From assembly GCF_006335115.1 (NCBI RefSeq), contig NZ_VDMJ01000031.1:1-64000 (forward strand): a DNA stretch of 64,000 bases, read 5' to 3'. The position numbers and the translations under genes were made by a program. The notes under the pieces were generated by a model. That model was not told the DNA's origin, did not search any database, and saw nothing but the letters and a program-made list of their open reading frames with translations. Positions 18,138 to 62,348 of this stretch are shown here, one piece after another; position 1 is the stretch's first letter, and each line of letters begins with the position of its first letter. The DNA comes from Streptomyces sp. NP160. Its GTDB lineage: Bacteria; Actinomycetota; Actinomycetes; Actinomycetales; Quadrisphaeraceae.

Positions 18138-18214
18138 GGTGGCGCTCCGTCATGGCTCGGTGGCAGTGCGTCGACCGTATCCCGCCGGGCGCGAACGACC
18201 GGCCAGCCGATCAT

Positions 18215-18257
18215 GCAGAAGACCCGCACCCCGGGCGCCGGAGTGCGGGTCTTCTGC
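18215..18257. repeat. Inverted repeat with GCAGAAG arms, possible terminator of the ald operon
   Basis: GCAGAAGACCCGCAC (18215-18229) is perfectly complementary to 18243-18257, with a 13-nt GC-rich loop. It lies after the DUF779 stop on the minus strand and before the S49 peptidase start. Its CATGCAGAAG edge is shared with the repeats at 34824-34882 and 35803-35881, so it may be one of a repeat family rather than only a terminator. Confidence 0.7.
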
Positions 18258-18275
18258 TCGGTCACGAGCGGAGGG

Positions 18276-25836: not shown

Positions 25837-25866
25837 GGTGGTCGGCTCCGCACGGAGGACCCCCCG

Positions 25867-25916
25867 GTGATCACGGGCGTCCGCCACGGGTGAGGGTGGC
25901 GGACGCCCATGATCAC
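25867..25916. repeat. 21-bp inverted repeat between infB and DUF503
   Basis: Arms 25867-25887 and 25896-25916 contain GGCGTCCGCCAC and its complement and end in GTGATCAC. There is one non-pairing position on the plus strand, which is a G-U pair in the minus-strand (operon) RNA. The loop is 8 nt. It lies within the infB operon, so it is either a partial terminator that tunes downstream expression or a repeat element. It shares the ATGATCAC arm core with the repeat at 53863-53945. Confidence 0.75.
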
Positions 25917-32982: not shown

Positions 32983-34776
32983 TCAGCCGCGCACGAGCGC
33001 GACGAGGTGGTGCGCGGCGGCCTCCACCGGCACGTCGGTGCGCTCGCCGGTGGCGCGGTCGCGGACCTCGACCACGCCCTCGGACAGGCGCTTGCCCACC
33101 GTGACGATGGTGGGCACGCCGACGAGCTCGGCGTCCTTGAACTTCACGCCCGGGCTGACGCGGGGGCGGTCGTCCAGCAGGACGTCGAGGCCGGCGGCCA
33201 CGAGCTCCGCGGCGAGGCGCTCACCGCCCTCGACCACCGCGGCGTCCTTGCCGGCCACGACCACGTGCACGTCGACCGGGGAGACCGAGCGCGGCCAGAC
33301 CAGCCCCAGCTCGTCGTGGCCGGCCTCGGCGATGGCGGCGACGGCGCGGGAGACGCCCACGCCGTAGGAGCCCATGGTGACCGTGACGAGCTTGCCGTTC
33401 TCGTCGAGGACCTGCAGGCCGAGGGCCTCGGCGTACTTGCGGCCCAGCTGGAAGATGTGGCCCATCTCCATGCCGCGGGCGGTCTCCAGCGGGCCGGAGC
33501 CGTCGGGCGCGGGGTCGCCGTCGCGGACCTCGGCGGCGTCGATGGTGCCGTCGCCGGTGAAGTCGCGACCGGCCACCAGGCCGAAGACGTGCTTGCCGGG
33601 CTGGTCGGCGCCGGTGACCCAGGCGGTGCCGGGCGCGACGCGCGGGTCGAGCAGGTAGCGGATGCCGGTGGTGACCGGCGTCCCGTCGGCACCGGTCTCA
33701 CCGGTGGGACGCAGGCCGAGCGCGCCGGGGCCGATGTAGCCCTTGACCAGCTCGGGGTGCTTGGCGAACTCCGCCTCGTCGAAGGGCTCCACGGCGGCCG
33801 GGGAGACGGCGGCCTCCAGGCGCTTGGCGTCGACCTCGCGGTCACCGGGCACGCCGACGGCCAGCGGCTCGCTGGAGCCGTCGGGGTGGCGCAGCAGCAC
33901 GATGACGTTCTTCAGCGTGTCCGCGGCCTCCCACGGGCGGTCCTCGCGGGGGTGCAGCCGGTTGGAGACCGCCACGAGCGTGTCGATGGTGGGGGTGTCC
34001 GGGGTGTCGCGGACGACGGCGGGCGGGGCGTCGTCCCAGCTCACGGGATCGGGAGCGACCGTGGTGACGGCCTCCACGTTGGCCGCGTACCCGCCCGCGG
34101 AACGGACGTAGGTGTCCTCGCCCTGGGGGCTGGGGTGGAGGAACTCCTCGCTGGCCGAGCCGCCCATGGCGCCCGAGACGGCGGAGACGATGACGTACTC
34201 CAGGCCGAGCCGGTCGAAGATGCGCACGTACGCCTCGCGGTGGCGCTGGTAGGCCTTCTCGAGGCCGGCGTCGTCGACGTCGAAGGAGTAGCTGTCCTTC
34301 ATGACGAACTCGCGGCCGCGCAGCAGGCCCGCGCGGGGCCGCGCCTCGTCGCGGTACTTCGTCTGGACCTGGTAGAGGCTCAGCGGCAGGTCCTTGTAGG
34401 ACGAGCACTGGTCCTTCACGAGGAGCGTGAACATCTCCTCGTGGGTGGGCGCCAGGAGGAAGTCGGCGCCGCGGCGGTCCTGCAGGCGGAAGAGGTTGGG
34501 GCCGTACTCCTCCCAGCGGCCGGTGGCCTCGTAGGGCTCCTTCGGCAGCAGCGCGGGGAAGTGGACCTCCTGGGCGCCGATGGCGTCCATCTCCTCGCGG
34601 ACGATCCGCTCGACCTTCTTGAGCACCCGCAGGCCCAGGGGCAGCCAGGAGAAGCCGCCGGGGGCGGCGCGGCGGATGTAGCCGGCGCGCACGAGCAGCT
34701 TGTGGCTGGCCAGCTCGGCGTCGGCCGGGTCCTCGCGCAGGGTGCGCAGGAGCAGCGTGGAGGTCCTCAACAGCAC
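32983..34776 (-). CDS. proS: Prolyl-tRNA synthetase (bacterial type with editing domain)
   Basis: Class II synthetase charging tRNA-Pro. The 597-residue protein starts [20 protein letters not shown]. It has motif 2 ([20 protein letters not shown]), a roughly 180-residue INS editing domain between motifs 2 and 3 (about 225-405), motif 3 ([20 protein letters not shown]), and a C-terminal anticodon-binding domain. The insertion marks the bacterial ProS type. The gene stands alone after a divergent DUF559 gene; a repeat element lies in the gap. Confidence 0.96.
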
Positions 34777-34823
34777 CCCCCGACCTTAGTGCCGCCCCTC
34801 CCCCGCCCCCGCGCGTCCCACCG

Positions 34824-34882
34824 AGCATGCAGAAGTCGCCCCAGAGCCCCTCGGACGGCCTTGTCGCCCACTTCTGCATGCT
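34824..34882. repeat. Inverted repeat with AGCATGCAGAAGT arms, left of the DUF559 gene
   Basis: AGCATGCAGAAGT (34824-34836) is perfectly complementary to ACTTCTGCATGCT (34870-34882), with a 33-nt spacer. It lies between divergent proS and the DUF559 gene, so it is not a terminator for either. AGCATGCAGAAGTCG is repeated identically at 35813-35827 on the other side of the DUF559 gene. Confidence 0.8.
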
Positions 34883-34942
34883 GGACGGGACGCCTGTGGA
34901 CAAGATCCACATCCGAGGTCCCCCTCGCGCCACCGTCGGGGC

Positions 34943-35833
34943 GTGGAGATCACCGAGGTGTGCCGCGAGCTCTGGCGTCGAGGCGGAACGGCGCTGAGCG
35001 GCGAGCTGGCCGTCGACCGCCGCTCGATGCGCCGCGCGCTGGACAGCGGCCGCGTGCTGCGGCTGTCACGGGGCGTCTACGCCCTCTCCAGCCAGCACCC
35101 CCCGCTGCTGGCGGCCGCGCGTGCCCGAGGGACCGCCTCCCACAGCAGCGCCGCGCAGCTGTGGTTGATGGACCTCGTGACAGCGCCTGCCCTCCCGCAC
35201 GTCACGGTCCGCCGCAACCGGCGCCTGCAGGACCCGGGGCTCGTCCCCCACTGGTGCGACCTGCCGGAGAGCGACGTCGACGGCATGGTCACCACCCCCC
35301 TCCGGACGGTGGTGGACTGCGCCCGCACGCTCCCGTTCCCGGAGGGACTGGCGGTCGGGGACTCGGCGGTGCGCCGCGGGCTGGTGACGAAGGAGCAGCT
35401 GCTGGCCCGGGCGGACGCCACCCGCGGCGCCGGGCGCGCGGCGGTGCAGAGGGTTGCCGAGCACGCCAGCCCCGACGCCGCCAACCCCTTCGAGTCCGCG
35501 CTGCGCGGCATCGCGATCGAGGCCGGGGTCAGCGGACTGCGCCCGCAGGTGCTGGTCGAGGTCCGCAGCGGCCTCGTCCGACCGGACCTCGTCGACTGGC
35601 GCCTGAAGCTGGTCAGCGAGGCCGACAGCTTCGAGTGGCACGGCAAGCGGGCCGCGCTGGCGGCCGACTGCCGTCGCTACGACGAGCTCGTGGCTGACGG
35701 GTGGACGGTCCTGCGCTTCGCGTGGGAGCAGGTCATGTTCGACCAGGGGTGGGTGTCGGGCGTGCTGCGCGACACCCAGGCGCTCCTCACGCGGTCAGCA
35801 TCCGTCCCGCCCAGCATGCAGAAGTCGGCTTGA
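34943..35833 (+). CDS. AbiEi-like winged-helix plus DUF559 endonuclease-like protein
   Basis: A 296-residue protein of a family found in variable numbers in actinobacterial genomes. The N-terminal about 60 residues look like the AbiEi antitoxin-type winged helix (SMRRALDSGRVLRLSRGVYA). The C-terminal about 100 residues match DUF559, a very-short-patch-repair-like PD-(D/E)XK fold: VRPDLVDWRLKLVSEADSFE, WHGKRA, RRYDELVADGWTVLRFAWEQ. The expected acidic residues (Asp in RPDLVD, Glu in SEAD) are there. No toxin partner is adjacent. The last codons (PPSMQKSA) are encoded by the left arm of an inverted repeat, and a related repeat precedes the gene. Function unknown. Confidence 0.78.
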   Translation: MEITEVCRELWRRGGTALSGELAVDRRSMRRALDSGRVLRLSRGVYALSSQHPPLLAAARARGTASHSSAAQLWLMDLVTAPALPHVTVRRNRRLQDPGLVPHWCDLPESDVDGMVTTPLRTVVDCARTLPFPEGLAVGDSAVRRGLVTKEQLLARADATRGAGRAAVQRVAEHASPDAANPFESALRGIAIEAGVSGLRPQVLVEVRSGLVRPDLVDWRLKLVSEADSFEWHGKRAALAADCRRYDELVADGWTVLRFAWEQVMFDQGWVSGVLRDTQALLTRSASVPPSMQKSA

Positions 35834-35881
35834 GCCCCCAGCAGGGCCGCCGGCGGGTGCTTCTGCATGCTGGGCCGGACG
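35803..35881. repeat. Inverted repeat at the 3' end of the DUF559 gene, also a bidirectional terminator candidate
   Basis: A perfect 16-bp pairing (35809-35824 with 35860-35875, core CCCAGCATGCAGAAG) extends to 22 positions with one mismatch (35803-35881). The DUF559 stop codon (35831-35833) lies in the loop and the convergent permease stop begins right after the element. The position fits termination, but the arms share 15 identical bases with the repeat at 34824, which cannot be a terminator. Confidence 0.8.
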
Positions 35882-35882
35882 T

Positions 35883-37196
35883 TCAGGGGCGGTAGGCGGG
35901 AGTGGCGGGCTCGCTGCCCGGCCCAGCGCCGGGGTCGGTGCCGCGCCAGCGGCCCAGCGCGGCCATGAGGTGGTAGAGCCCGACGGCGGCGACGGTGCCG
36001 AGCGCGATGCCGGTGAGCGTCAGGTCCCCGACGGTCAGCGTGTAGTCCGCGATCCCGATGACGAGCGCCACCCCGGCGCTGGTCAGCACGGCCGGGCGGG
36101 AGAAGTCGACCCGGGCCTGCACCCAGATCCGCGCGCCCAGCACGCCGATGAGCCCGTACAGCACCGTGCCCGCGCCGCCGAGCACGCCGACGGGGACGCT
36201 GGCGATGACCGCGCCGAACTTCGGGCACAGGCTGAGCACCAGCGCGGCGCCGGCGGCCACGGCGTAGGCCGCGGTGGAGTAGACGCGGCTCGCGGCCATG
36301 ACGCCGATGTTCTCCGCGTACGTGGTGGTGCCGGAGCCGCCGCCGAGACCGGCGAGGGTGGTGGCGAGGCCGTCGGCCACGAGCGCCCGCCCGGTGAGGG
36401 GGTCGAGGTCGCGCCCGGTGAGCGCGGCGACGGAGCGGACGTGACCGACGTTCTCCGCCACGAGCACCAGCACCACCGGGACGAAGACGGCGATGACCGC
36501 GAGGTCGAACGCCGGGGTGGAGAACGTCGGCAGGCCCACCCAGTCGGCGGCCCGCACCGCCGAGAAGTCGACCTCGCCGCGCACGACGGCCACGAGGTAG
36601 CCGACCAGCACCCCGAGCAGGATCGACAGCCGCCCCAGCAGACCGCGCAGCAGCACCGACGCCAGCACGATCGCGGCGATCGTCACGACGGCGGTGACCG
36701 GTCCGCCCTTGACGTTGTTCCACGCCGCGGGGGCGAGGTTCAGGCCGATGAGGGCCACGATCGTGCCGGTGACGGCCGGCGGCAGCAGCCTCTCGATCCA
36801 CCCCGGCCCGGCACGGTGCACCAGCAGGCCGACCAGCGCCAGGAGCACGCCGGTCACGACGACGCCGCCCAGCGCCGCGCCCGGGCCGCCCGAGGCCTGC
36901 GCGGCGCTGATCGGCGCGATGAACGCGAAGCTCGAACCGAGGTAGCTGGGCAGGCGCCCGCGCGTCAGCAGCAGGAACAGCGCCGTGCCGACGGCCGAGA
37001 AGAACAGCGTGGTCGACGGCGGGAAGCCGGTGATGAGCGGCACGAGGAAGGTCGCGCCGAACATCGCCACGACGTGCTGCAGCCCGATGCCGACCGTGCG
37101 CGGCCAGCTCAGCCGCTCCTCGGGCGCCACCACGGCCCCCGGCGCGACGGTGCGCCCGTCCCCGTGCAGCTGCCAGAACCCGCCCGTGCGCGCCAC
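35883..37196 (-). CDS. NCS2-family nucleobase permease (uracil/xanthine type)
   Basis: A 437-residue transporter with about 14 helices. Family motifs are GLQHVVAMFGATFLVPLITG (QH motif in helix 1), SSFAFIAPI, and the substrate-site region GRALVADGLATTLAGLGGG followed by SGTTTYAENIGVMAASRVYS. The ENVGHV and AENIGV Glu residues match UraA-type uracil symporters more than xanthine permeases, but the substrate is inferred. No pyrimidine genes are adjacent. It ends against the inverted repeat that separates it from the DUF559 gene. Confidence 0.9.
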   Translation of the reverse strand: MARTGGFWQLHGDGRTVAPGAVVAPEERLSWPRTVGIGLQHVVAMFGATFLVPLITGFPPSTTLFFSAVGTALFLLLTRGRLPSYLGSSFAFIAPISAAQASGGPGAALGGVVVTGVLLALVGLLVHRAGPGWIERLLPPAVTGTIVALIGLNLAPAAWNNVKGGPVTAVVTIAAIVLASVLLRGLLGRLSILLGVLVGYLVAVVRGEVDFSAVRAADWVGLPTFSTPAFDLAVIAVFVPVVLVLVAENVGHVRSVAALTGRDLDPLTGRALVADGLATTLAGLGGGSGTTTYAENIGVMAASRVYSTAAYAVAAGAALVLSLCPKFGAVIASVPVGVLGGAGTVLYGLIGVLGARIWVQARVDFSRPAVLTSAGVALVIGIADYTLTVGDLTLTGIALGTVAAVGLYHLMAALGRWRGTDPGAGPGSEPATPAYRP

Positions 37197-51869: not shown

Positions 51870-51923
51870 CGGGCGACGGTTTCCGTGGCGAACAGCACTC
51901 AATGCCACGGAAACCGTCGCCCG
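51870..51923. terminator. Perfect 20-bp inverted repeat between permease and Lrp gene
   Basis: CGGGCGACGGTTTCCGTGGC (51870-51889) is perfectly complementary to 51904-51923 with a 14-nt loop. It starts 17 nt after the permease stop and ends 40 nt before the Lrp gene. It can act as a terminator or, like the other long repeats in this window, be an intergenic element. It contains an AT-richer GGTTTCC core unusual for this DNA. Confidence 0.65.
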
Positions 51924-53855: not shown

Positions 53856-53862
53856 CCTGAGG

Positions 53863-53945
53863 GGGTGGCCAACCGCCCATGATCACGGCGGTGATGAGGG
53901 GTCGGCCACCCCACCCCGTCCGTGATCATGGGCGGTCGGCCACCC
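53863..53945. repeat. 26-bp inverted repeat with CCCATGATCACGG arms
   Basis: Arms 53863-53888 and 53920-53945 match at 25 of 26 positions; the core is CGCCCATGATCACGG. The 31-nt spacer holds an extra copy of GGTCGGCCACCC (53900-53911), identical to the end of the right arm, so two alternative foldings are possible. It begins 7 nt after the aminotransferase stop and ends 8 nt before the next gene on the same strand. Confidence 0.8.
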
Positions 53946-62285: not shown

Positions 62286-62340
62286 CGAGTGCGGGATGAG
62301 ACGACGTCGTCCCCGCACTCGACGACGCGAGTGCGGGGAC
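62286..62340. repeat. Overlapping alternative hairpins with CGAGTGCGGG arms
   Basis: CGAGTGCGGG (62286-62295) can pair with CCCGCACTCG (62312-62321), and the same central arm extended to GTCCCCGCACTCG (62309-62321) can instead pair perfectly over 13 bp with CGAGTGCGGGGAC (62328-62340). The two foldings exclude each other. The set lies just after the stop of the LLM gene and upstream of the ABC-F gene in minus-strand direction. Confidence 0.8.
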
Positions 62341-62348
62341 GGGCGCCC

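Follow-up and report, generated by a model that had tools for sequence, protein, structure and literature searches.

AbiEi-DUF559 genes and their scattered palindromes: a candidate enzyme-and-repeat partnership in actinobacteria

DUF559 is a widespread protein family of unknown function. A gene of this family, lying between two related palindromes in the window (the whole 64-kb stretch of DNA analysed here), is one instance of a link between DUF559 genes and paired palindromes that recurs across the class, and this link suggests an unrecognised enzyme-and-repeat partnership in actinobacteria. In particular, we put at about 0.55 the probability that the protein is a site-specific nuclease acting on the double sites that flank its gene and are scattered in the genome, in a partnership resembling that of REP and RAYT but formed by an unrelated enzyme. 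The observations on which this reading is based are the linkage itself, the gene-specific arms of the palindromes, their dispersal and near-constant length, the intact candidate catalytic residues and the lack of RAYT genes. Within open-licence PubMed Central papers, no title or abstract opening was found that links DUF559/AbiEi-nuclease genes to scattered palindromes.

The gene, its product and the flanking palindromes

The gene (34943..35833, + strand; product of 296 aa) is the single open frame between the two repeats, which thus bracket one gene, as the first-pass annotation of this DNA had proposed; a gene call from codon usage agrees. The antitoxin-type and nuclease-like product described there is in keeping with the profile matches: an AbiEi-type part covers residues 21-167 (35003..35443, + strand; PADLOC AbiEi, E 3.6e-15; the Pfam AbiEi_4 profile gives 19.3 bits, below its cut-off of 25), and the DUF559 match, at residues 215-271 (35585..35755, + strand), is just over the cut-off (22.1 versus 20.6 bits). 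As judged from these matches, the protein is a putative fusion of an AbiEi-type DNA-binding part and a DUF559/Vsr-like nuclease part. A profile compared with solved structures retrieved 3hrl, endonuclease-like (E 5e-7), 3r3p, a mobile intron protein (3e-4), PvuRts1I (0.004) and, weakly, Vsr (0.2-0.35), and an AlphaFold model built from two sequences had a mean pLDDT of 42.5 and was not used.

In a hand-chosen alignment of 33 proteins with flanking repeats (26 scoring at least 12 in the arm-sharing test described below, and seven, L042, L052, L200, L207, L209, L211 and L218, included on the strength of related flanking repeats recognised by eye), E184 (codon 35492..35494), D215 (35585-35587) and E226 (35618-35620) are invariant, and D228 (35624-35626; all on the + strand) is near-invariant, being retained in at least 90% of the sequences. 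Identity to the window protein is below 30% in 22 of the 32 other relatives in this alignment, and AbiEi models match 27 of the 33 proteins. Going by the fold family, E184, D215 and E226 would form a PD-(D/E)XK-type active site. The loose E-D-ExD pattern is present at 37/37 loci above the threshold of the arm-sharing test, but also at 59/80 below it.

The palindromes, to which no strand is assigned, are 79 bp each and lie at 34814..34892 upstream (half-sites 34814-34836 and 34870-34892) and at 35803..35881 downstream (half-sites 35803-35825 and 35859-35881), each being made of two inverted half-sites of about 23 bp around a 33-bp spacer. A common 15-mer and a common right-arm core had already been recognised in the two repeats, and both words are indeed there, the identical 15-mer at 34824-34838 and 35813-35827 and the core CTTCTGCATGCTGG at 34871-34884 and 35860-35873; the repeat extents given with them hold as to their coordinates, but both copies are longer, their 79 bp having been set by comparison with scattered copies. 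It was also rightly seen that the second repeat encodes the last codons of the gene: the downstream palindrome overlaps the 3′ end, the stop codon included. The upstream one sits in the gap between the gene and the divergent proS. Their loops differ in sequence and agree in spacing and length. Comparison with scattered copies indicates that the 33-bp spacer is poorly conserved; the per-position information content increases at position 2 and drops beyond position 23, covariation in the inner stem is weak, and the loop is mostly free.

On single-stranded folding, both palindromes beat all of 200 shuffles (z −4.4 and −5.9). With one mismatch at most, CATGCAGAAG is matched 9 times in the window versus 1.06 expected, a number reached in 0/100 shuffles, and the exact pair GCATGCAGAAG...CTTCTGCATGC is found, in the whole assembly of the window, at these two flanking sites only. 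Chance as an explanation is rejected on the shuffles and on the shifted windows, swapped pairs and other-gene controls given below. A search of 34500-36200 against Rfam gave no match. Elsewhere in the window, a CATGCAGAAGACCC-type palindrome with one arm incomplete lies at 18212-18258 and two GTGATCATGG-type elements at 25860-25915 and 53862-53936, both types flanking other DUF559 genes in other Quadrisphaera genomes; additional strong inverted repeats, with arms of 14-23 bp, are found at 51870-51923, 2318-2370 and 62308-62341.

Paired palindromes at DUF559 genes and the specificity of their arms

In a sample of 60 genomes from the class, 45 have DUF559 matches. Outside the window's own genome there were 102 class hits, of which 13 (the 12 weakest and G019:C546) were not fetched; the own-family set consists of 38 PF04480 matches in two genera, with 23 from G003-G007 left out. 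Of 127 loci, 10 could not be scored because the fetched stretch ended, which leaves 117 scorable ones, 33 from the two own-family genera and 84 from elsewhere in the class. In the arm-sharing test, which looks for upstream and downstream inverted repeats with common arm sequence at a score of at least 11, 37 of these 117 loci were positive (15 in the own family and 22 elsewhere, the latter spanning 12 families), versus 1/111 other open frames, 0/216 shifted windows within the same loci and 8/1500 swapped pairs. At a score of 12 the counts become 36 for DUF559 loci, 0 for other genes, 0 for shifted windows and 5 for swapped pairs.

The first-pass annotation had suspected a link between the repeats and DUF559 genes and had suggested asking whether they flank these genes more often than others; they do, by the counts just given, and the link is far broader than the window locus. 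Repeats scattered with no tie to such genes were what it had set against its own proposal, and the repeats are scattered yet linked to DUF559 genes. Below the threshold stand 80 of the 117 scored loci, and inspection by eye adds pairs whose arms are imperfect at more loci (L208, L210, L211, L216, L218 and L200 among them). A clade formed by L204, L205, L206, L209, L212 and L213 has two or three GTGATCATGG repeats of 30-32 bp upstream and inverted copies downstream, in place of a single palindrome on each side.

The arms belong to the gene, not to the genome. Among the hairpins of 36 of 39 Quadrisphaera loci, similarity of the arms tracks similarity of the proteins (Mantel r 0.50, 0/2000 permutations), and arms are common to 24/80 pairs of Quadrisphaera DUF559 loci of the same clade in different genomes; when the clades differ, the fractions are 2/91 within a genome and 3/455 between genomes. 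Cores of the CGGG type, as at the proS locus of G011, number 6 in G011, 3 in G010, 4 in G009, 2 in G008 and 0 in four other genomes (controls 0); in a small test of drift, the outer arms matched in 2/5 CGGG-type stretches fetched from G011.

Other clades have scattered palindromes of their own. For the pair GATCATGGAGAA...TTCTCCATGATC, the count is 44 in G071, where every copy is 55 bp, 14 in G053, where the copies span 54-56 bp, and 0 in eight other genomes; in both G071 and G053 it flanks DUF559 genes. The pair ATCTTGGCGATC...GATCGCCAAGAT was counted 6, 3, 4 and 3 times in G008, G009, G011 and G012 and not at all in nine other genomes, one exact copy flanking the DUF559 gene of that clade in G008, G009 and G011. 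Finally, CGAGTGGCCA...TGGCCACTCG is present 6 times in G061 and twice in G015 (all 57 bp), with 3/8 copies at DUF559 genes and none in eight other genomes. Reversed-pattern controls gave 0 for the GATCATGGAGAA, ATCTTGGCGATC and CGAGTGGCCA scans.

Seven DUF559 relatives from PLSDB records were scored as well. Strong matches between the palindromes at the two ends were seen for three, two of them (WP_139286304.1 and WP_170181047.1) in Tsukamurella tyrosinosolvens NCTC13231 and one (WP_054009319.1) in Arthrobacter sp. ERGS1:01; a fourth gave a borderline score of 9, and the remaining three scored 0. Over 91-100% of their length, the palindromes of the two Tsukamurella genes are matched in 8 and 9 records, all from T. 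tyrosinosolvens, and the rest of the 72,556 PLSDB records gave no match at the search sensitivity used. The ‘plasmids’ NZ_LT559118.1, NZ_LR134451.1 and NZ_LR134464.1 look chromosomal (an 11.85-Mb Nonomuraea record, and Tsukamurella pieces with purB and gatA), and the plasmid label is therefore no evidence of mobility.

Scattered palindromes and a gene fixed in place at the loci examined

The 55-bp core of the window's palindrome, with up to 3 mismatches, is found 9, 39, 22, 10, 0 and 0 times in G000 (the window's own genome), G008, G009, G010, G011 and G012, with reversed-pattern controls of 2, 0, 1, 1, 2 and 1; G002 has 5 versus 0 in its control, and six other genomes of the family 0-1 versus 0-2. 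G011, which like G008 is of the same genus as G000, does hold 56-bp copies, missed by the fixed-length pattern, and G012 has zero matches to this core. When any total length of 40-70 bp is allowed, the window class is 55 bp in 16/19 copies and 56 bp in 3, and of the 16 copies of another class, CATGCAGAAGACCC, 13 are 49 bp and 3 are 50 bp.

A catalogue drawn from fetched stretches of five genomes holds 77 distinct copies with matching outer arms, one of which (L067 near 7030, also among the 64 placed copies below) is a chance match. They fall into three outer-arm subtypes, with labels wrong for a few copies (outer arm GTGACG labelled CGTCCC): the window gene and its relative in G008 have CGTCCCG-CATG, the relative in G009 has GTGACG-CGTG, and the paralogue in G000 has GGTCACAGCGG. 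Genes and palindromes do not pair off exactly: in G008, with 16 catalogued copies of the CGTG type, the window gene has a single close relative, and the palindromes beside it are of the CATG type, the reverse being true in G009. Elements of the two types are often paired in G008 and G009, about 94 bp apart, despite the one matching close gene found per genome.

The 64 Quadrisphaera copies that were placed lie mostly between genes: 59 have called genes on both sides, in 27 convergent, 24 co-directional and 8 divergent gaps, 2 are inside a gene (one of these being the chance match) and 3 are without a called gene on one side. Comparable Quadrisphaera stretches offer 4335 bp of convergent, 14462 bp of co-directional and 8734 bp of divergent intergenic DNA (27531 bp in all). 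In G071, 13 of 21 copies are in convergent, 5 in co-directional and 3 in divergent gaps, with 0 inside a gene; set against 6182, 2801 and 1551 bp available in the same stretches (10534 bp in all), this amounts to no preference there. Palindrome matches in Brachybacterium, Microbacterium and two metagenome assemblies were rejected as chance or terminators, their outer arms being absent by eye, and no DUF559 gene lies within the 6-8 kb around them.

Related genomes were compared for movement of the elements. At G008:C8, G008 and G000 share one palindrome of the GATCATGG family that G009, G010, G011 and G012 lack, with no target duplication visible at this polymorphic site, and a copy of the window family present in G008 and G000 is missing from G009 along with neighbouring sequence. 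At G008:C11 (L066:2074-10074), G009 lacks a block of about 7.9 kb in which FecCD-type transport genes lie, and one junction of the block coincides with the outer end of a palindrome common to both genomes. The elements are therefore polymorphic and located at breakpoints. More palindrome copies lie inside the G008:C11 block. Pfam searches of seven genes of this block and two of the G008:C8 block gave no transposase above the cut-off, and no clean empty site for the window's own palindrome family was found in the compared stretches, between species too diverged for exact junctions.

The gene, in turn, stays beside the same neighbour. Next to it on the − strand is a proS-like gene for a class II aminoacyl-tRNA synthetase with an editing domain (32983..34776) and, on the other side, also on the − strand, a xanthine/uracil-type permease gene (35883..37196). 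A relative of the gene adjoins proS in 5/5 other Quadrisphaera genomes and in both genomes of the next genus, g2, i.e. at 7/7 loci examined, with no empty site seen; the permease was not found in the fetched stretches of two of the seven (L036 and L063). In genus g4, three relatives of 51-52% identity all lie farther than about 2 kb from proS, and the comparison of proS neighbourhoods covers Quadrisphaera and g2, so that an older move of the gene may have occurred. Each Quadrisphaera genome has one to three close relatives or remnants of the window gene, including close paralogues in G000 (C143) and G011 (C4), a fragment in G010 and a decayed copy in G011. Decayed or stop-bearing relatives (G011:C5:412699-413286, L203, and G007:C4:136986-137810, L201) indicate that the gene can be lost. 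The window protein had no match in plasmid records, and a phage link was rejected, viral contigs yielding neither the palindrome nor a relative of the protein. The scattered unit is the palindrome, not the gene.

A proposed nuclease acting on its repeats, rival readings and known systems

These observations suggest that the protein acts on the repeats, the reading that we favour. Its target would be a double site, i.e. two inverted half-sites of about 23 bp at fixed spacing, whose size and near-constant spacing would meet the needs of two paired AbiEi-type monomers that carry nuclease domains. Two monomers would bind the two arms via their AbiEi parts, the paired nuclease domains would then nick or cut at the element, and repair or strand transfer would copy the element elsewhere or keep the copies alike. 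The gene would be inherited vertically in place, with the small palindromes as the multiplying or maintained units, hence a REP/RAYT-like way of working by an unrelated enzyme. Counting against this reading are the 80 scored loci below the threshold, the inexact pairing of genes and palindromes in G008 and G009, the 2/5 outcome of the small drift test, the zero core matches in G012, the missing preference for convergent gaps in G071 and the occurrence of the loose E-D-ExD pattern at loci below the threshold.

The main rival is regulation: the palindromes would be operators, the AbiEi part repressing its own gene via the upstream copy, with the other copies forming a regulon or nucleoid-binding sites and the nuclease part having another role. 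According to passages of PMC7319586, AbiEi antitoxins do autoregulate through 23-bp inverted repeats in their promoters, and here the half-sites are about 23 bp and the upstream copy is in the divergent gap towards proS. However, the second copy lies at the 3′ end of the gene, the nuclease residues are invariant, and only 8/59 Quadrisphaera copies are between divergent genes, which account for 8734/27531 bp of the intergenic DNA, although this dearth is not seen in G071 (3/21 versus 1551/10534 bp). On balance we consider the operator explanation unlikely.

More improbable still is a defence or policing role, in which a restriction-like enzyme would have its own island marked, or itself be regulated, by the palindromes; the AbiEi models do derive from a defence library and PvuRts1I is among the weak PDB matches, but the fixed neighbour, proS, is a housekeeping gene, the palindromes are scattered far from the gene, and viral contigs lack both palindrome and protein relative. 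That the palindromes are terminators or RNA hairpins adjoining these genes by accident would fit their strong hairpins and the many Quadrisphaera copies at gene 3′ ends (27/59 between convergent genes), but it is hardly credible with one copy upstream of the gene, arms that are clade-specific and conserved when the loops are not, no Rfam match, and matching palindromes at both ends of only 1/111 other genes. Just as implausible is the mobile cassette raised by the first-pass annotation, in which gene and flanking repeats would move as one unit: it would explain the two related flanking repeats, the close paralogues in G000 and G011 and the other location of the g4 relatives, but it is disfavoured because the gene is fixed beside proS at all seven loci in two genera, with no empty site seen there, few close copies per genome and no target duplication seen. 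A gene fixed at this place with no empty-site counterpart was what this annotation had itself named as a refutation.

The reading of a nuclease that acts on its repeats can be set against known systems. As PMC8266576 and PMC3733652 describe it, a REP/RAYT gene has palindromes on both sides that are also dispersed in the genome, chiefly in intergenic DNA; it has few copies, gives no indication of being mobile itself and diverges together with its repeat, and the spread or maintenance of a small element by a stationary gene has already been proposed for it. Here, too, the partner gene is flanked by its own palindromes, these are scattered and mostly intergenic, and the gene is vertically inherited and of few copies. 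However, the enzyme is an AbiEi-DUF559 nuclease, whereas RAYTs are HUH (Y1) tyrosine transposases, and since the HUH enzyme defines that group, the present system is not a member of it. Furthermore, there is no common GTAG/CGTC tag (one Quadrisphaera subtype starts with CGTC, others with GTGACG or GGTCAC, and other clades differ), the elements measure some 46-82 bp, a free spacer separating their two half-sites, and they number tens of copies rather than hundreds. A conventional RAYT as the spreader was rejected, the RAYT-type transposase profile (PF01797, Y1_Tnp) being matched in 0/11 genomes tested, with the control positive in 6/14.

The DNA-binding half of the proposal finds its parallel in type IV AbiE antitoxins and Rv2827c, which likewise combine an AbiEi part with paired inverted repeats of about 23 bp; passages of PMC7319586 report that the Streptococcus AbiEi binds two inverted repeats of 23 bp with 3 bp between them, and Rv2827c repeat pairs with 13 bp between them. 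Unlike in type IV AbiE systems, no AbiEii toxin is found here, where proS and the permease flank the gene on the opposite strand, and, unlike in AbiE antitoxins, a nuclease is fused and palindromes are present at both ends and scattered. With DUF559/Vsr-like nucleases (3r3p, 3hrl) the protein shares the profile match and the E-D-E-x-D residues, but it differs from them in the fused AbiEi part, the link to palindromes and a location outside introns. In insertion sequences with MITEs, too, inverted-repeat ends enclose a gene, and these ends have numerous small relatives without one; in the present case, however, the gene is fixed, neither a target duplication nor a classical transposase is seen, and the whole palindrome is repeated at each end, where an insertion sequence has one half per end.

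More broadly, though this is slightly less likely than not, AbiEi-DUF559 proteins could be a large unrecognised class of actinobacterial repeat-spreading nucleases, each with its own double palindrome of near-constant length, bound by an AbiEi-type pair and cut within or beside the free spacer. The link reported here already supplies many actinobacterial DUF559 members with a concrete, gene-specific candidate substrate, so that the function of the family becomes a simple test of binding and cutting, and it amounts to a natural collection of DNA-binding parts, each paired with its target site. If the proposed nuclease activity is real, it would account for scattered palindromes in genomes without RAYT genes, breaks and repair at the palindromes would seed new copies and reshape intergenic DNA, and the REP/RAYT lifestyle would have been invented a second time, independently, with an enzyme of the PD-(D/E)XK type.
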